Of a stretch of DNA of 64,000 bases, positions 29,432 through 46,258 are shown one piece after another. Made by a program: the position numbers and the translations under genes. The notes beneath the pieces were generated by a model that had not been told where the DNA came from, searched no databases, and was given only the letters and a program-made list of their open reading frames with translations. Source of the DNA: a virus; the IMG/VR virus record IMGVR_UViG_3300046684_000205, positions 1 to 64,000 of that record; one strand, given 5' to 3'. Numbering within the stretch: the stretch's first letter is position 1; each line of letters starts with the position of its first letter.

Positions 29432-29488
29432 GCCGGGAAATTATGCAACAGAAACTTGCTAAGGAGCCATTACCCAGAGAAAATTGTT

Positions 29489-29517
29489 TTGACACAACTC
29501 AAAAGTTTGCTTACCCT
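29489..29517 (+). promoter_or_regulatory. Candidate sigma70 promoter, shared motif copy 1
   Basis: A perfect TTGACA at 29489-29494, 17-base spacer and TACCCT at 29512-29517, followed by AATAAT. The spacer contains TCAAA-AGTTTGC, closely matching the promoter at 37897. It drives the rdgC2/methyltransferase block. Confidence 0.65.
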
Positions 29518-29550
29518 AATAATTCCCTTCCCGAGAGAAAGTCCAACACC

Positions 29551-30402
29551 ATGTGGCCCAAGAGCGCAACCATATTCGGCATCAGCCCGAAAGCACAATT
29601 TCCCGTCGAGCAGCTTGAAGCTGCTCGTTTTGTTCCTGTCGGCGATCTGCAGCTGACGTCCTGCGGCTTCGTGCCGATTCAGGGCGAGCTGGCATACCGG
29701 CAGGGCAAGCACCTCCTGCTGCGCTTCATGACGGAAAAGAAACACCTGCCGGGCTCGGCGGTGGCGGTGAAGCTGGAAGAGAGGTGCGCCGCGCTGGAAG
29801 ACGAGCAGGGCTTCCCGCCCGGCAAGAAGGCGCGTAAGGAGCTCAAGGAGCGGATCGTCGACGAGCTGCTGCCGCGCGCGCTGTCGTCGCGCCGTACGAC
29901 CCTCGTCTGGATCGACCAGGTCCAGCATCGCATCGTGATCGACTCGACCTCGAACAGTGTGGTCGACGAGATTCTGAAGACCCTGCGCAAGACCTTCACC
30001 GGCGAGCTGGGCATCTGCGACGTCAGCTGGCCGCGCGACAAGGTGATCACCGAGTGGGTCAACGACGAGGCGCCGCACGACTTCACGCTGGACGATTCGC
30101 TGGTGGTGCAGTACCCGGGTGCGAAGGGCAAGGTCGTGAAGTTCGAGCGCGGGTCCTGCGACGACACGGACGTGATGGACAGCCTGCAGCGCGGCGCCGT
30201 CGTGCAGTCGGTCGCCATGACCTTCGGCAGCCGCCTCTCGTTCGTCATGACCGACAACAACCAGATCCGCAAGCTTCGGGCGCTGGACGTGCTGCAGGAA
30301 GGCCGCGACGCCGAGAAGGATGTCGACCGCTTCGCTGGCGACGTCGAGCTGATGACGCGCGAGCTGGGCGTGCTGATCGATCGCCTGGTGCGGGAGGCGT
30401 AA
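29551..30402 (+). CDS. rdgC: RdgC-like recombination-associated protein (copy 2)
   Basis: 283 residues from ATG 29551. QGFPPGKKARKELKERIVDELLPRA region (about residues 87-111) matches the same block of the first copy almost residue for residue, while the N-terminus (MWPKSATIFGI) is diverged. Both are close to cellular RdgC length. As first gene behind a strong promoter it is likely expressed early. Family known to bind dsDNA and inhibit RecA; phage function inferred. Confidence 0.85.
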   Translation: MWPKSATIFGISPKAQFPVEQLEAARFVPVGDLQLTSCGFVPIQGELAYRQGKHLLLRFMTEKKHLPGSAVAVKLEERCAALEDEQGFPPGKKARKELKERIVDELLPRALSSRRTTLVWIDQVQHRIVIDSTSNSVVDEILKTLRKTFTGELGICDVSWPRDKVITEWVNDEAPHDFTLDDSLVVQYPGAKGKVVKFERGSCDDTDVMDSLQRGAVVQSVAMTFGSRLSFVMTDNNQIRKLRALDVLQEGRDAEKDVDRFAGDVELMTRELGVLIDRLVREA

Positions 30403-30704
30403 TGGCGATCCGGAAAATTGGCATGCTCACCGAGGTCACGCCCGGCCAGTACATCTGCATCGAGCCGCTGATGCGCGACCACATCTGCAGCTCGCCGCTG
30501 AAGGTGCTTCGCCGCAGCGGTAAGCGGGTGTATTTCGAAAACCGGCATGGTGAAGAGAAGTTCTGCGCTGTCGGCAGCGTCGTTGCCCTGTGCGACACCC
30601 AGGAGGAGGCCGCGGAGCTCTTCGCCATCAGCCTGTCGCAGTTCGACCGGCTGCGCGAGGTGCGCAACGAGCACAAGGCGCAGTTCGCGGCCCTGCTCGC
30701 ATGA
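30402..30704 (+). CDS. Hypothetical protein with KOW-like strand pattern
   Basis: 100 residues from ATG 30402, sharing one base with the rdgC2 stop. Beta-rich first 60 residues (SPLKVLRRSGKRVYFENR) recall small SH3-like domains; the C-terminus is a charged helix. Function unknown. Confidence 0.5.
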   Translation: MAIRKIGMLTEVTPGQYICIEPLMRDHICSSPLKVLRRSGKRVYFENRHGEEKFCAVGSVVALCDTQEEAAELFAISLSQFDRLREVRNEHKAQFAALLA

Positions 30705-31804
30705 GCACGGCCTACTACAACGAGTTCGATCCCGGCGCCGCGGCGTGGCTCCGGGAGTTGATTAAAGAGAAGCTGATCGCGCCGGGCGTGGTCGACGAAA
30801 GGAGCATCGCAGATGTCACACCCGGAGACCTTGCCGGATTCACCCAGTGCCACTTCTTCGCCGGCATCGGCGGCTGGTCCTACGCTCTCCGACTTGCAGG
30901 CGTCCCTGACAGCCGTCCAGTCTGGACTGGAAGCGCTCCTTGCCAGCCTTTCTCCTCGGCAGGCGAGGGAGCGGGGTTTGATGATGAGCGGCACCTATGG
31001 CCCGCTCTCCACCACCATGCCCGCGTCCGACGCCCTGCAGAAATCCTTGGAGAGCAGGTTGCAAGCAGTCTCGTCGACCCATGGATCGACCTTGTACAAG
31101 CTGATCTGGAAGCCCTGGGCTACGCCGTCGGGGCGCTCGCGTTCCCGGCTTCGTGCGTCGGTGCCCCGCACATCCGCGACCGCTGCTACTGGGCAGGCCG
31201 GCTGGGTGACACCGACCTCCCGCGACTGGAAGGACTCGGGAGCCGATATCAAGCCGCGCTCGGACAATGGCAAGGAGCGCCTGGATCAGCTGCCGCGGCA
31301 AGCGAACTTGTGCGGCTGGTCCACGCCGATCGCCAACGAGGCCAAGGCGGGCACGCCCTGCTCCAACCAGGTGACGGTGGGCATGGCGGCGCAGCTGACG
31401 GGCTGGCCGACGCCGCGCGCGGTGGATGGCAGCAAGGGTGTGGACCCGACGGCGGACACGCTGCGCGGCACGGATCTGCCGACCACGGCCAGCTGGACGA
31501 GTGGGATCGCCGTGCCGGGCCCGGCCCGACTAACGGCTACTGGGAAGCTGCTGACTGGCTTGCTTGCCGAGACAGCCGATGGCGGCCTGTTGAATGCGGC
31601 ACACAGCCGCTGGCTCATGGGCTACCACGAAGCTTGGGATCGTGCGGTGCCAGGGTGGCAGGACTGGCACGCATGGCAGGTCTTGATGCAGCAAGCCTTG
31701 GCCGAGCAAAGAGCTACCGCGTGACGGCGCTGCGAGGCTATGGCAATGCGATCAACGTCTATGCCGCGAAAGCATTTATTGAAGCGTTCTACGGGAGCAT
31801 CTGA
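30701..31804 (+). CDS. C5 cytosine DNA methyltransferase, 3' two-thirds overprinted
   Basis: 367 residues. Motif I FFAGIGGWS (52-60), motif IV GSAPCQPFS (77-85, catalytic Cys 81), motif VI as EQV (118-120) and motif VIII IRDRCYW (158-164) are in order; motif X is YGNAINVYAAKAFI near the end. The EQV form of ENV occurs in this subclass. The target-recognition region is Gly/Ala-rich, consistent with constraint from the second frame at 30813-31724. Probably methylates phage DNA against restriction. Confidence 0.85.
   Translation: MSTAYYNEFDPGAAAWLRELIKEKLIAPGVVDERSIADVTPGDLAGFTQCHFFAGIGGWSYALRLAGVPDSRPVWTGSAPCQPFSSAGEGAGFDDERHLWPALHHHARVRRPAEILGEQVASSLVDPWIDLVQADLEALGYAVGALAFPASCVGAPHIRDRCYWAGRLGDTDLPRLEGLGSRYQAALGQWQGAPGSAAAASELVRLVHADRQRGQGGHALLQPGDGGHGGAADGLADAARGGWQQGCGPDGGHAARHGSADHGQLDEWDRRAGPGPTNGYWEAADWLACRDSRWRPVECGTQPLAHGLPRSLGSCGARVAGLARMAGLDAASLGRAKSYRVTALRGYGNAINVYAAKAFIEAFYGSI
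30813..31724 (+). CDS. Conserved WPTP-repeat protein overprinted on the methyltransferase (+1 frame)
   Basis: 303 residues lying wholly inside the methyltransferase gene, in the +1 frame. It carries features I recognise from a widespread phage protein family: SGTYGPLSTT, STLYKLIWKPWATPSGRS, three GW-x-TP repeats (residues 130, 169 and 198) and the closing HSRWLMGY (264-271). AAAGGAG lies eight bases before its ATG. Function unknown. Its length, motifs and ribosome site argue for a true gene rather than a chance frame. Confidence 0.7.
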   Translation: MSHPETLPDSPSATSSPASAAGPTLSDLQASLTAVQSGLEALLASLSPRQARERGLMMSGTYGPLSTTMPASDALQKSLESRLQAVSSTHGSTLYKLIWKPWATPSGRSRSRLRASVPRTSATAATGQAGWVTPTSRDWKDSGADIKPRSDNGKERLDQLPRQANLCGWSTPIANEAKAGTPCSNQVTVGMAAQLTGWPTPRAVDGSKGVDPTADTLRGTDLPTTASWTSGIAVPGPARLTATGKLLTGLLAETADGGLLNAAHSRWLMGYHEAWDRAVPGWQDWHAWQVLMQQALAEQRATA

Positions 31805-32522: not shown

Positions 32523-32965
32523 TGTCTGGCTTGAGCCCTGACTCCAGGCGCAGCCTGGAGGAGTTGGCCAAGGTCCAGGCGCTGGTCCGGCGCGTCTCCA
32601 GCCCGTTCTGGATGCACCGACCCACGGCCTGGCAGTGGGTCGGGCCCGACGGCCGGCCGCAGGGCTTCGCGCCGATGGCGGGGACGAGCCCGGGCCTGTG
32701 TAACCTGCTGTGGCTAGCCATGGAATTCGACCGGCCGCCGCAGGTCTACCAGGCCAGCCACAACGGGCTCTACATCATCCTGCTCAGCCAGGCCCACAAC
32801 GCGATGCTGGACGGCGAGCCGCTGACCGACTGGGCCAGCGTCCTGACGCTGCGCGAGTTCGCCGACAGGTTGCCGGCCACGAGCGAGGCGGAACTCGCTG
32901 TTGAGCGTGCCTACCCGCTGCTGAAAACACTTGCCGCGCGGAGGCTTGCAGATGCTCACACTTGA
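32519..32965 (+). CDS. Hypothetical protein
   Basis: 148 residues from ATG 32519 (an alternative ATG is the next codon). Mostly helical with a Trp-rich FWMHRPTAWQWVGPDG segment around residues 31-46. It overlaps the helicase start by 14 bases. Not recognised. Confidence 0.5.
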   Translation: MMSGLSPDSRRSLEELAKVQALVRRVSSPFWMHRPTAWQWVGPDGRPQGFAPMAGTSPGLCNLLWLAMEFDRPPQVYQASHNGLYIILLSQAHNAMLDGEPLTDWASVLTLREFADRLPATSEAELAVERAYPLLKTLAARRLADAHT

Positions 32966-34394
32966 ACAGGTGATCGAGCGCTACCCCTTCCCGCATCCGC
33001 TGGGAGGGGTCATGACACTCGAACCGATGCAGAAGGAGGATATCGTCAAGGCGGTCATGTGGCGCCGCGCGCTGCTCGATCTACCGGTCGGCTACGGCAA
33101 GACGGTGATCGCGACCGCCATCTCCCTGGTGCTGCAGCCGCAGCTCACCATCATCCTGGTGCCGCCGGTTCTGATCCCGCAGTGGGTGGCCTGGCTGGGC
33201 AGCATTCCCGGCGCCGGGCTGGCGCTGGCCTACGACGCCCCGCCGAAGAAGCGGCAGGCGCTGCCCCTGCAGGACGCGGACTGGCTGGTGATGAGTTACC
33301 AGGTGTTCAACAATGACATCGAGCTGCTGCGCAGGCTCTGCGCCAAGGCCGAGGTGTTGCTGGTGGTGGACGAGGCGCAGGCACTGAAGGGTCGTGGCGT
33401 GCTGTTCAAGAATGTGCGTAATTTCGCGGCGGGCCGCGACTTGATCACGATGTCGGGCACGATCGCCAGCAAGCCGGGCGACTACTACAGCTACATCAAG
33501 CTCAACACGCCAGACACATACGGGACCTATACGCAGTTCGAGAACATCCATGTCAAGGAGCGCGACATCTTCAAGCAGCCGATCGAATGGCACAATCTCG
33601 ATCTGCTGCAGACCAACCTGAACATGCGGCGCATCCACCGCACCAAGGAGGAGGTGCACTCGGCGCTGCCGAAGGCGAAGGTCATCCCGATCTATTACGA
33701 CCTGTCGAAGGAGCACATGGCGCTGTACCGCCGCCTGATGGAGGAGCAGCTCCTGCTGCTGGACGACGGCGGCAAGATCGACGCCACTACTGCCACGCGG
33801 CTGTATCACGCAGCGCAGCAGATCGTGATCGATTACGGCTTCTTCGCCGGCGACGAGACGAAGCGCTCGGCGATCTTCGACCTGGTCGACGGTATCGCCG
33901 ACGAGATCAACCTTGGCGGCGAGATCCTGATGGACGGGAAGCTGCAGCCGGCCAGCAAGCTGATCCTCTGGACCACGCACAGGAGTGTCTCGCGTCTGAT
34001 CGGCGAGCACATGGATGCGCGGCTTGCGCCGATCGGCAAGAGGGGTGTGATGGCCTTTTCCGAGGTCGACTCGAAAGCGAATGTCCAGCAGTTCATGAGC
34101 GACCCGAATACGGTGAATTTGACAGCGCAGCCGGGCAGCGCCGGCGCCGGCCTGAACCCGCAGTATTTTTGCTGGGAATGCGCTTACGTGCAGCTGCCGA
34201 CGACCACGATCCCCTTCATTCAGTCCTCGGGTCGGATCGACCGCAAGGGGCAGCGCTACAACCCGAACATTCGGTTGCTCATCGCGCGCGGCACGATCCA
34301 GGAGCAGCTGCTGAGGAACCTCATCAAGAATGACGAGCTGGTCAACAAGGCAGCCGGCTCGAAAGGTGCCATCAAAAATATGATTTTCCCGTAG
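32952..34394 (+). CDS. SNF2/DEAD-like superfamily 2 helicase
   Basis: 480 residues from ATG 32952 (GGAGG eight bases upstream; an in-frame TTG at 32931 is less likely). Walker A LPVGYGKTV near residue 47, motif II VVDEAQAL near 139, motif III MSGTIAS, and motif VI QSSGRIDRKGQ near 430 give both RecA-like lobes. Phage proteins of this type remodel DNA or branch structures during replication. It precedes the primase-helicase. Confidence 0.85.
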   Translation: MLTLEQVIERYPFPHPLGGVMTLEPMQKEDIVKAVMWRRALLDLPVGYGKTVIATAISLVLQPQLTIILVPPVLIPQWVAWLGSIPGAGLALAYDAPPKKRQALPLQDADWLVMSYQVFNNDIELLRRLCAKAEVLLVVDEAQALKGRGVLFKNVRNFAAGRDLITMSGTIASKPGDYYSYIKLNTPDTYGTYTQFENIHVKERDIFKQPIEWHNLDLLQTNLNMRRIHRTKEEVHSALPKAKVIPIYYDLSKEHMALYRRLMEEQLLLLDDGGKIDATTATRLYHAAQQIVIDYGFFAGDETKRSAIFDLVDGIADEINLGGEILMDGKLQPASKLILWTTHRSVSRLIGEHMDARLAPIGKRGVMAFSEVDSKANVQQFMSDPNTVNLTAQPGSAGAGLNPQYFCWECAYVQLPTTTIPFIQSSGRIDRKGQRYNPNIRLLIARGTIQEQLLRNLIKNDELVNKAAGSKGAIKNMIFP

Positions 34395-42576: not shown

Positions 42577-42734
42577 AGTGGGCGCTCTTTGCAGCGGTGA
42601 TGGCTGTGGCCGCCTTTCACTTCTGGATCGCTCGCAAGGCTGCCCGCGAAGGCGCTTGGGAGTGGTGCCGACAATTCACGCTGTTGGGCCACATCCTGCT
42701 GGTGATGGCCACCGTAATCGGAGGGTATAAATGA
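42573..42734 (+). CDS. Small membrane protein
   Basis: 53 residues with two membrane segments (LFAAVMAVAAFHFWI and LLGHILLVMATVI). GGAGG lies five bases upstream. Next to the polymerase start. Function unknown. Confidence 0.5.
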   Translation: MKWALFAAVMAVAAFHFWIARKAAREGAWEWCRQFTLLGHILLVMATVIGGYK

Positions 42735-45700
42735 AAAAACATCGCCGCCTTGCCTTCGACATGTCGTCCTTCATGTGGACGATGATGAGCTGGGGCAAGG
42801 ACAAAGAAAACGGCTTTGAAGTCGAGCACGAAGGCAAGGTCGTCTACATCAACAGCGCCCTGTATGGCTACGACAACACGCTGGGCCGCATGCTCGACGT
42901 GATGAAGCAGTACAAGGCAAACCCGATCGACGTGATCCTGGTGTTCGAAGGCCAGAACAGTAAGGGCAAGCGCCTGCTGATCGACAACCAGTACAAGGGT
43001 GGCGGCGAAAGCAGCCGGCCGCCGCAGGCGTACGCGCAGTTCGAGAAGCTGCGCGAAATGCTCAAGACGACCTTTCGCGAACTCGGCGCCCAGCTGATGT
43101 GGCAGGACTTCGCCGAGGGCGACGACACGCTGGCCTGGCTGGCCCACAACACCGAGGACGACCTGATCGTCGCCACGTTTGACAACGACCTGACGGCGCT
43201 CAATTTGCATCCGAACGCCTACGGCGCGCGCGTCTCGACGTGGATCAACGAGATGTTCGAATACAACAAGTACGGCGTGTTCGACTATCACCTGGTCACT
43301 ACCTACAAGGCGCTGGTCGGCGACAAGTCGGACAACATCAAGGGTTGCCCAGGCTTCGGCGAAAAGGCGTTCGAAAAGCTGTGCGAGAAATACGGCTACG
43401 ACGGCTTGCAGCAGCTGCACGATATGCTGCTCAGGAGCGATCTGTCGCCGCTGGCTGACTTCATTTCAGGTCCGGAAGACAAGCTCCTGCAGCTGATCCT
43501 CGACAACGCGCCGCAGGTGATCCGCTGCTTCGATCTGGCGCGCCTGCGCCCTGAGTGGGTCAACACCATGCGCCAACCGTTGCAGTGGGAGGCCGGCATG
43601 GTGCGCCAGCTGGCGCCCACCGACCACGACCCGCGCCTCAAGTCCTGGTACGGTCGCACGCGGCTGATCACCGGAGCCGTGTTCGAGCAGGCCATCGCCT
43701 GGGCCATGCCATACATCCTGGCGTCACACGAGATTTCGCTCGACATCGAGACCGCGACGCCGGACGAGTCGGACGGGTGGCTGGCCGCGCTGGGCGATCC
43801 GGACGGTGTCGACGTCTTCGGATCCTTCCTGGTTGGCCTGTCGATCACCTTCGGCCCGAACAACCAGTACAGCCTGTACTTCTCGGTGCGCCACGCCGAC
43901 ACCGACAACGTCGACAGCGAGCTGCTGCGCCAGTTCATCGCCTCGATCTCGCAGGAGATCCCGCTGATCATCCAGAACACCTCGTTCGAGCTGACCGTGC
44001 TCTTCAACGAGTGGGGCGCGCGCCAGATGGACAACGGCTACCACGGCTTCCTGCCCAACGTGCTGGACACGAAGTTCGAGGCCAACTATGTCAACGAGAA
44101 CATCCCGGTCGGCCTGAAGGAGCGGTCGCACGGCACCTTGGGCTACCGCCAGCAAACCTACAAGGAGACGTGCGAGATCACGGCGCCGGTGGACCAGCTG
44201 TTCCCGGGCGGGCGCCTGGTGCGCGAGGACTACGTCTACGAGACGATCGGCACCGGCAAGTTCGAGCCGCTGACCGACGAGGAGATCGCCGCCGGCGTCC
44301 AGCCGATGGAGATCACGAAGACGCAGCTGGTGGAAGGTGAAGACGGCCTGCCGGTCGTGGCCACCCAGACGCGCCGCTACAAGATGAACGAGCTGCCGGC
44401 GGCGCACGTGCTTGGCTACGGCGCCGACGACACGATCTGCACGATTGCCCTGCACAACCACTACAAGCTGTTCATGCAGCTGGAGCATAGCTGGCAGACC
44501 TACCTGCAGGTGGAGATCCGCGCGGCCTATCAACACGCAAAGAACTTCATCGACGGTACCGAGATCTCGGTGGCGCGCTGCAAGGAGCTTGAGCGCGAGG
44601 ACGACGCCACCTACGACGCCGCCTGGGCGACGGTGCGTCAGTACCTGATCGAGCAGGGCTGGGCCGGCACCACGCCGCCGTCGTACACGGTCGACATCAC
44701 GCCGGCGCAGATCAAGGAGGCCTACACCATCGTGACTGGCGAAGTGCTGGACACGAGGATGAGGACGCCATCGAAGATCGTGAAGTTTATCGAGTCGACA
44801 ACCGAGCACTTGCAGTTTGCGCGGATGCTGGCCACGCTGATCGAGGCGAAGGCTGCCGGGGAGGAGGCATCGGAGATCGCTGGCCGCATGTTCTCGAAGT
44901 GGGTGTGCAGCTACTTCAAGGGTGAGCCGCAGTTCAACAAGGGTTCGCCGATCCAGATGCAGCGCCTGATGTACGAGGTGATGGGTCTGCCGATCCGCGT
45001 GCGCAACGCGCCGACCGAGGCGATGAAGAAGGCCGGCATCCGCGAGGGCTCGCCGAAGACCGACCTGCTGGCGGTGGCCTACGCCCTGCAGGAGTGCGGC
45101 CCGGAAGAGAAGCCGGTGCTGGAAGCCCTGAAGCTGATGGGCATGGTCACCACGCGCCGCTCGCTCTACTACTCGAAGTATCCGTACTTCACCCACTGGA
45201 AGGACGGCCGCGTGCGCTCCCAGCACAACCAGTGCTCGACCGTGACGCGCCGCGCCAGCGAATCGAAGCCTAACAAGCAGCAGCTGCCCAAGCATCAGAA
45301 GATCGAAGGGCAGGAGGCCAAGTTTCGTGAGGTGATCGTGCCGCACAAGCCCGGCGCCGTGATCGTCTCCATGGACTTCGACTCGCAGGAGATGGTCCTG
45401 ATCGCATTCCAGTCGCAGGACCCGAACGCGCTGTCCTGCTTCCAGGGCGAGAAGCGCAAGTCGCCGCACACCATCACCGCACTGGGTATCGTCCGCGAGG
45501 AGCAGAAGCTGGACTGGTCCTACGAGGATTACGAGGCGGCGCTGGACAAGGCGATGGGCCCTGAGCTGGCCGAGTTGGCCAAGGAAACCCGCAAGCTGGG
45601 CAAGAAGGTGAACTTCACGGCCGAATACGGCGCCATGGCCGAGAAGGTGGCCGCCACGCTGATGGTGTCGGTCGAGCGCGCCCAGATGTTCCTCGACGCG

Positions 45701-46258
45701 CGCGAGGCGATGTACCCGGTCGCCCAGCAGTGGAAGGAAGACATCAAGGCCGAGGTCAAGGAGTTCGGCGTGGTCCGTACCCTGGGCGGCGGCGTGCGCC
45801 ACCTTGCCGACCAGCTGCTCAATGGCACCAACTTCGAGAAGTCGAAAGCGGAGCGCCAGGCGGTCAACTTCAAGGTGCAGGGCCCGGCCGGCGAGCAGAC
45901 CAAGCTTGCGGAAGGCCGGATGTGGGACGACAACCTGTTCTACGACTTCGACGCCGTCTGCTACGGCCCCATCCATGATGAGGTAGTGGCATCCGTGATG
46001 ATCGAGGACCTGCCGGCCTTCCTGCCGCGCATGCACCGCTGCATGACGGCGCCGTTCGCCACGATGGATCTGGAAGTCGTGTCGACCATCTCGTTCGGCC
46101 CGAACTTCTATCGCCAGACCGAGATCGGCGCTTACCCGACGCCTGAAGCTATCCGTGACGGTCTGCTCGAGATGCACCTCGGGATGATCGCCCGCGGCGA
46201 GACCACATGGGAGCAGTCGCGGATCGAAAATGAAGCCAAACTTTTGGAGGCAGCATGA
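42731..46258 (+). CDS. polA: DNA polymerase I family A, with 5' nuclease and 3' exonuclease domains
   Basis: 1175 residues. Residues 1-300 form a FEN-like 5' nuclease (GDDTLAWL; VGDKSDNIKG plus CPGFGEKAF helix-hairpin-helix near 196-210). DIETATPDE near 337 is Exo I of the proofreading domain. The polymerase has motif A SMDFDSQEMVLIAF (about 879), motif B RKLGKKVNFTAEYG (about 955) and motif C GPIHDEVVA (about 1080). All three domains in one chain is unusual for phage. Replicative or processing polymerase. Confidence 0.9.
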   Translation: MKKHRRLAFDMSSFMWTMMSWGKDKENGFEVEHEGKVVYINSALYGYDNTLGRMLDVMKQYKANPIDVILVFEGQNSKGKRLLIDNQYKGGGESSRPPQAYAQFEKLREMLKTTFRELGAQLMWQDFAEGDDTLAWLAHNTEDDLIVATFDNDLTALNLHPNAYGARVSTWINEMFEYNKYGVFDYHLVTTYKALVGDKSDNIKGCPGFGEKAFEKLCEKYGYDGLQQLHDMLLRSDLSPLADFISGPEDKLLQLILDNAPQVIRCFDLARLRPEWVNTMRQPLQWEAGMVRQLAPTDHDPRLKSWYGRTRLITGAVFEQAIAWAMPYILASHEISLDIETATPDESDGWLAALGDPDGVDVFGSFLVGLSITFGPNNQYSLYFSVRHADTDNVDSELLRQFIASISQEIPLIIQNTSFELTVLFNEWGARQMDNGYHGFLPNVLDTKFEANYVNENIPVGLKERSHGTLGYRQQTYKETCEITAPVDQLFPGGRLVREDYVYETIGTGKFEPLTDEEIAAGVQPMEITKTQLVEGEDGLPVVATQTRRYKMNELPAAHVLGYGADDTICTIALHNHYKLFMQLEHSWQTYLQVEIRAAYQHAKNFIDGTEISVARCKELEREDDATYDAAWATVRQYLIEQGWAGTTPPSYTVDITPAQIKEAYTIVTGEVLDTRMRTPSKIVKFIESTTEHLQFARMLATLIEAKAAGEEASEIAGRMFSKWVCSYFKGEPQFNKGSPIQMQRLMYEVMGLPIRVRNAPTEAMKKAGIREGSPKTDLLAVAYALQECGPEEKPVLEALKLMGMVTTRRSLYYSKYPYFTHWKDGRVRSQHNQCSTVTRRASESKPNKQQLPKHQKIEGQEAKFREVIVPHKPGAVIVSMDFDSQEMVLIAFQSQDPNALSCFQGEKRKSPHTITALGIVREEQKLDWSYEDYEAALDKAMGPELAELAKETRKLGKKVNFTAEYGAMAEKVAATLMVSVERAQMFLDAREAMYPVAQQWKEDIKAEVKEFGVVRTLGGGVRHLADQLLNGTNFEKSKAERQAVNFKVQGPAGEQTKLAEGRMWDDNLFYDFDAVCYGPIHDEVVASVMIEDLPAFLPRMHRCMTAPFATMDLEVVSTISFGPNFYRQTEIGAYPTPEAIRDGLLEMHLGMIARGETTWEQSRIENEAKLLEAA

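Follow-up and report, generated by a model that had tools for sequence, protein, structure and literature searches.

The window analysed here is a stretch of 64,000 nucleotides, positions 1 to 64,000 of the 93.5 kb IMG/VR virus record IMGVR_UViG_3300046684_000205. It carries on its + strand a gene for a C5 cytosine methyltransferase (MTase), referred to as frame A, whose start codon shares ATGA with the stop codon of the upstream gene. A second frame, frame B, lies in the +1 register relative to frame A and runs for 912 nt without a stop, so that positions 30813-31724 are open in two frames of the same strand, as the first-pass annotation of this DNA had proposed. The MTase is surrounded by phage genes, and no restriction enzyme was noticed next to it. 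Its neighbours RdgC (29443-30402), a SNF2-type helicase (32931-34394) and a family A DNA polymerase (42731-46258) indicate a replication and recombination region. The RdgC homologue is encoded by the phage, lies two genes upstream of the MTase and matches PF04381 (E 2e-63). The features of the two frames are as follows.

30701-31804, + strand: frame A, C5 cytosine MTase, putative catalytic subunit, 367 aa (PF00145, phrog_363, M.HhaI profile and fold matches)
30710-30814, + strand: A, motif II-III-like segment (YYNEFDPGAAAWL...VVDERSIADV), before motif I (hhalign)
30798-30804, + strand: Shine-Dalgarno sequence (SD) of B, AAAGGAG, within the Arg-Ser codons of A (ERSI motif)
30813-30815, + strand: ATG start of B, GATGT register, inside Asp-Val of A, kept in relatives
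30813-31724, + strand: frame B, nested +1-frame protein, 303 aa, probable target-recognition and motif IX subunit
30857-30874, + strand: A, motif I, FAGIGG
30938-30946, + strand: A, motif IV, PCQ, with the catalytic Cys
31049-31060, + strand: A, motif VI, GEQV replacing ENV
31163-31183, + strand: A, motif VIII, APHIRDR
31200-31214, + strand: B, GW-x-TP repeat 1, GWVTP
31229-31534, + strand: A, Gly/Ala-rich middle, predicted disordered and nearly neutral (AF2 and substitution counts)
31314-31328, + strand: B, GW-x-TP repeat 2, GWSTP
31401-31415, + strand: B, GW-x-TP repeat 3, GWPTP
31590-31637, + strand: B, motif-IX-like segment LNAAHSRWLMGYHEAW, family consensus LNPAHSRWLMGLPPEW (hhalign)
31736-31756, + strand: A, motif X, GYGNAIN, downstream of the end of B

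Frame A matched PF00145 in Pfam (E 6e-11) and phrog_363 in PHROG (E 5e-74). M.HhaI matches the frame A profile with its motif I aligned to profile positions 38-67, and the predicted fold of frame A matches M.HhaI/M.HaeIII. Across 74 relatives, PCQ, G-E-Q and R-x-R do not vary, nor do G348, N349 and A350 of motif X (GYGNAI). Motifs I, IV, VI and VIII, which the first-pass annotation had assigned to one frame, are thus all present in A and are joined there by motif X. When A was aligned to single-chain MTases by hhalign, its residues 3-42 landed on motif II/III and motif I was left out; the N-terminal 40 residues (YYNEIDPxAAxWLR...DERSIxDV) align with canonical motif II-III, yet precede motif I. 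Because this segment stands before motif I, the Rossmann order of C5 MTases appears to be locally permuted in the frame A family (window positions 30710-30874, A residues 4-58). The matches of A to Pfam, M.HhaI and single-chain MTases (hhalign) stop at about residue 175, after motif VIII. The AF2 model is mostly confident for residues 1-167, and residues 177-278 have a pLDDT below 50. Neither a target-recognition region nor motif IX was found within the A chain, the middle of which is disordered by prediction and close to neutral.

Conservation of the second frame across the family

For the window gene on its own, 7% of the synonymous-codon permutations yielded an equally long +1 frame (p=0.07), so the single sequence is weak evidence for a second gene. 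The family gave a different picture. The +1 frame is open over more than 80% of its length in 97% of 206 related MTase genes, compared with 1.9% of the flanking genes (n=484). In the 206 non-redundant MTase genes, the open fraction has a median of 0.90 against 0.46 after permutation, with 84% individually significant, whereas the 484 flanking genes from the same loci have an open fraction of 0.26 both before and after permutation and 6.4% are significant. These family counts are not independent, since homologues share descent; sequences at 40-60% identity are, however, largely randomised at synonymous sites. In 80 IMG/VR loci chosen by frame A only, the +1 frame is open over 58-100% of A in every case and the +2 frame contains 8-25 stops. 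A second sample, again chosen on A only but with a diverged enterobacterial-phage gene as the query (n=51), showed a +1 frame more than 70% open in 47 genes, with 44 of the 51 significant, and retained it at a GC content of 0.45-0.54. When B was used as a tblastn query, matches were obtained in 173 phage records, and among bacterial genomes B was found in 80 loci of alpha-, beta- and gamma-proteobacteria and Desulfovibrio-like genomes. All 160 loci retrieved by the B query also match A, and no standalone B gene was found among them. Phages used in the laboratory that carry the pair include N15 and Bas77 of the BASEL collection. No IMG/VR relatives were retrieved with a Komagataeibacter phage gene as the query. 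The first-pass annotation had pointed to homologous MTases with a second frame broken by stops as the observation that would speak against it, and the +1 frame is instead intact across the A homologues.

Substitutions were then classed by what they change in each of the two frames, following the approach of OLGenie, and counted over 37 independent pairs by a simple method without multiple-hit correction, which gave for B a dNN/dNS of 0.53 (95% CI 0.45-0.63) and a dSN/dSS of 0.42 (0.34-0.51). The +1 control in 46 flanking-gene pairs gave 0.82 (0.75-0.88) and 0.85, respectively; the members of these pairs are more closely related than those of the MTase pairs (median identity 96% versus 78%), and the control is therefore imperfectly matched. 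The same +1 measure was 0.90 in A outside B, and the +2 frame of the overlap gave 1.39. Synonymous divergence of A was depressed inside the overlap, at 0.19 compared with 0.43 outside. The two checks that had been proposed for this locus, on synonymous variation and on dN/dS in each frame, thus both came out in favour of dual coding. The substitution patterns indicate that both frames are conserved protein-coding genes under purifying selection beyond the controls. Taken across the family, the sequence evidence that two-frame coding is real is decisive, and a chance open frame was rejected at this level by the permutation and flanking-gene controls.

Selection is unevenly distributed along the gene. 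In a regional split of the 17 pairs having all landmarks, the catalytic part gave 0.18 for A and 0.54 for B, and the C-terminal part gave 0.39 for A and 0.66 for B. In the middle, A had a dNN/dSN of 0.87 (0.79-0.97) and B a dNN/dNS of 0.47 (0.34-0.60), so that B is the protein seen by selection there. The earlier suggestion that the part of A expected to recognise the target is constrained by the second frame is in keeping with these values. By these counts, constraint alternates between the frames, falling on A in the catalytic part and motif X and on B in the middle.

The start of B also carries a signature of its own. The SD lies 8 nt upstream of the ATG. GGAG-forming Arg-Ser codons are used at the SD site in 79/138 relatives, compared with 23/204 Arg-Ser pairs elsewhere in A, and AGG is the rarest Arg codon in these genes outside the SD site of B. 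The ATG itself is conserved in 106/138 relatives. The enrichment of SD codons and the retention of the ATG indicate that independent initiation of B from its own SD and ATG is itself under selection.

Frame B as a candidate subunit of a split enzyme

Frame B matched phrog_1008 (E 6e-32) and phrog_31772 in PHROG, and no match was found among the Pfam and NCBIfam models searched; homologues of both frames exist elsewhere, as had been recognised from the sequence at the outset. The PHROG families of the two frames, phrog_363 for A and phrog_1008 and phrog_31772 for B, all bear the label 'DNA methyltransferase', and their descriptions are silent on the shared DNA. B alone has no catalytic motif despite this label, which phrog_1008 and phrog_31772 have apparently inherited from the overlapping gene. 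The elements that the first reading of the sequence had picked out in B, namely the GW-x-TP repeats, HSRWLMGY (at about 31602-31625) and the AAAGGAG site, could all be located. The conserved parts of B are a helix-hairpin segment, the GW-x-TP repeats and the C-terminal GQLNPAHSRWLMGLPPEWD. The N-terminal motifs SGTYGPL, ESRLQ and TPSGRS arise where conserved motifs of A are read in the +1 frame, and conservation of B in that part is therefore partly forced by A.

The C-terminus of B offers a link to MTase function. In hhalign, its motif-IX-like segment could be aligned to RLNPAFPEWMMGWPTGW, found in the single-chain C5 MTases of actinophages, at E 2e-5 and with 41% identity, over 22 columns only. 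We take the L-x-P...M-G-x-P arrangement at this C-terminus to be the C5 motif IX pattern; in the B of the window, the prolines after LN and after MG-x of the family consensus are replaced. A profile search of solved structures with B found no MTase and no confirmation of motif IX. The AF2 model of B is of low confidence (pLDDT 60), and neither a fold search with this model nor a sequence search of solved structures gave a match. The single-chain actinophage MTases belong to the same catalytic family as A and have the canonical motif order in one frame, in contrast to A and B, which split it over two. In one of them, gp71 of Mycobacterium phage WillSterrel, LLPTP repeats are followed in a single frame by RLNPAFPEWMMGWP and GNGV, and RLNPAFPEWMMGWPTGWV, after the repeats, directly precedes motif X.

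With target recognition and motif IX taken from the +1 frame, the motif order along the DNA of the present locus is canonical (I-IV-VI-VIII-target recognition-IX-X). Because the C-terminus of B aligns with the single-chain motif IX segment, the two genes in DNA order spell a canonical enzyme, and because this segment is found in B and missing from A, the simplest view is that the two proteins are subunits of a single enzyme. Motifs I-VIII and X lie on the first chain and the candidate motif IX on the second, which is nested in the first and has its own SD and ATG. We therefore favour, with a probability of roughly three in four, the reading that the locus encodes one two-polypeptide C5 MTase made of a catalytic subunit A and a nested target-recognition and motif IX subunit B. 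In such an enzyme, A would contribute the SAM-binding and catalytic motifs I, IV, VI, VIII and X. B would be translated in the +1 frame from its own ribosome-binding site inside A and would supply the variable target-recognition region, with the GW-x-TP repeats, as well as motif IX. The two would join on DNA, where B would choose the target sequence and A would transfer the methyl group. From this arrangement we infer that target recognition is the task of B, that the two proteins form a heterodimer, and that the pair would be enzymatically active while A alone and B alone would be inactive. The first-pass annotation was correct in seeing two conserved overprinted proteins, but it missed the split-enzyme explanation suggested by a motif-IX-like segment that is present in B and lacking in A.

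Three other explanations were weighed. B might be a real, separate protein with another job, such as an inhibitor or regulator of the MTase or an anti-restriction protein, and merely be overprinted on A. Overprinting as such is silent on function, and the absence of a recognised domain and the poor fold prediction of B agree with this possibility. Nevertheless, the points at which selection switches frames are precisely those at which an MTase requires its target-recognition part and motif IX, the latter being missing from A. None of the 160 loci retrieved with B lacks a match to A, and in the single-chain relatives the MTase frame itself contains PTP repeats along with a motif IX sequence resembling that of B. 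We accordingly regard another job for B as unlikely, though worth keeping in mind.

The canonical motif order obtained when frames are switched could also arise from programmed ribosomal frameshifting, in which ribosomes would pass from A to B after motif VIII and back before motif X to make a single-chain MTase and no separate B. This route requires two opposite shifts. Moreover, translation signals belonging to B, an SD and an ATG under selection, lie ahead of motif I of A, and B is constrained over the catalytic part (0.54), which a frameshift product would not use; these two observations make frameshifting less likely, to the point that we give it very little weight. It could finally be argued that B is no protein at all and that its open frame and motifs are by-products of GC-rich codon usage and conserved MTase motifs, as the permutation result for the window gene and the mirroring of A motifs in the N-terminal part of B would allow. 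That idea is scarcely tenable, given that the flanking genes behave as the null, that the frame is kept at moderate GC, that dNN/dNS of B falls far below the +1 controls, that the SD codons are selected and that the middle is conserved in B and not in A. The split enzyme with a nested subunit B thus remains our preferred reading.

Known split methyltransferases and the meaning of the overlap

The two-polypeptide C5 MTase is already known as a kind. M.EcoHK31I is part of a restriction-modification system, and its small ORF reportedly lies inside the large ORF in another frame, with both required, as Lee, Kam and Shaw are said to have described in 1995. According to the published description, the large subunit of this enzyme (YGGCCR) carries motifs I-VIII and X and motif IX resides on a separate small polypeptide, and the target-recognition domain is predicted on the large, not the small, subunit (PMC3404938). 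Likened to it by that description, the present pair has the candidate motif IX on B and motifs I, IV, VI, VIII and X on A. In contrast to M.EcoHK31I, the setting here is one of phage genes with no restriction enzyme seen alongside, B spans most of A, the selected part of B includes the middle and not motif IX alone, and target recognition would lie on B. The M.EcoHK31I sequence was not found in the collections searched. Among E. coli genomes and plasmids, none of six neighbourhoods of the pair, which are mostly prophage-like, had an annotated restriction endonuclease beside the gene, as an EcoHK31I-like locus would. M.AquI is also split, with the catalytic motifs on one polypeptide and the distal variable region and motif IX on another (PMC3404938). 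The present pair shares with it a variable region and motif IX on the second polypeptide, but motif X is on the small subunit of M.AquI, whereas here it lies in A and the gene for B is nested. Hidden HNH endonucleases of the ShiLan type are encoded by out-of-frame ORFs inside phage DNA methylase genes (PMC11855218); unlike these inserted homing elements, the overlap described here concerns the catalytic and recognition region of the MTase itself and is kept family-wide.

In the partial collection searched, the literature on overlapping genes in phage cytosine MTases does not describe this pair. Fc02 olg1/olg2 was considered as a prior description and rejected, as the paper contains no methyl-related term. 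What is new here is the family-wide extent, the dual selection, the alternating constraint and the apparently permuted catalytic domain. Existing annotation is uneven. Both frames are annotated as DNA methyltransferases in phage K1ind2 (NC_041898), B alone is annotated as 'DNA methyltransferase' in Pseudomonas phage PMG1 (2129-2890), where frame A is broken by a frameshift in the record, and annotation covers A only in the E. coli RefSeq entries examined. The origin of the 'Mte8-like' label in phage records could not be traced. In Dunaliella viridis virus SI2 (1848-2252), the annotated 'cytosine methylase' is what an internal deletion has left of the gene: the catalytic part is lost and traces of both frames persist.

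The catalytic region of mycobacteriophage MTase genes also has a conserved-looking +1 reading (SETLPTSGMTRNGxLLPLP...LPTPRA), for which most genes fail the permutation test and a few pass. Because of these failures, and because frame A in part dictates how this reading aligns to B, we do not claim a nested frame resembling a target-recognition domain in actinophage MTases; it is possible that this reading is a partial version of the same overprint.

In bacteria and their phages, two full-size proteins seldom share a long stretch of DNA on the same strand, and such cases are difficult to demonstrate. The present overlap spans about 300 codons, is old and occurs widely, in hundreds of sequences that are 40-60% identical, and its length, spread and age make it an unusually good model of selection under dual coding. 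If the nested reading is true, target specificity (B) and catalysis (A) evolve on shared nucleotides, and a very common gene annotated as one protein would be two in hundreds of related phages and prophages. The MTase annotated in these phages and prophages would then probably be inactive or differently specific if expressed alone, which bears on the interpretation of methylomes, on phage anti-restriction and on enzyme mining. On balance, we lean towards the broader view that nearly every member of this very common C5 MTase family of proteobacterial phages is a nested two-gene enzyme, with specificity overprinted on a locally permuted catalytic subunit, that annotation overlooks the second subunit in nearly all cases and that actinophage MTases may hide a partial overprint.
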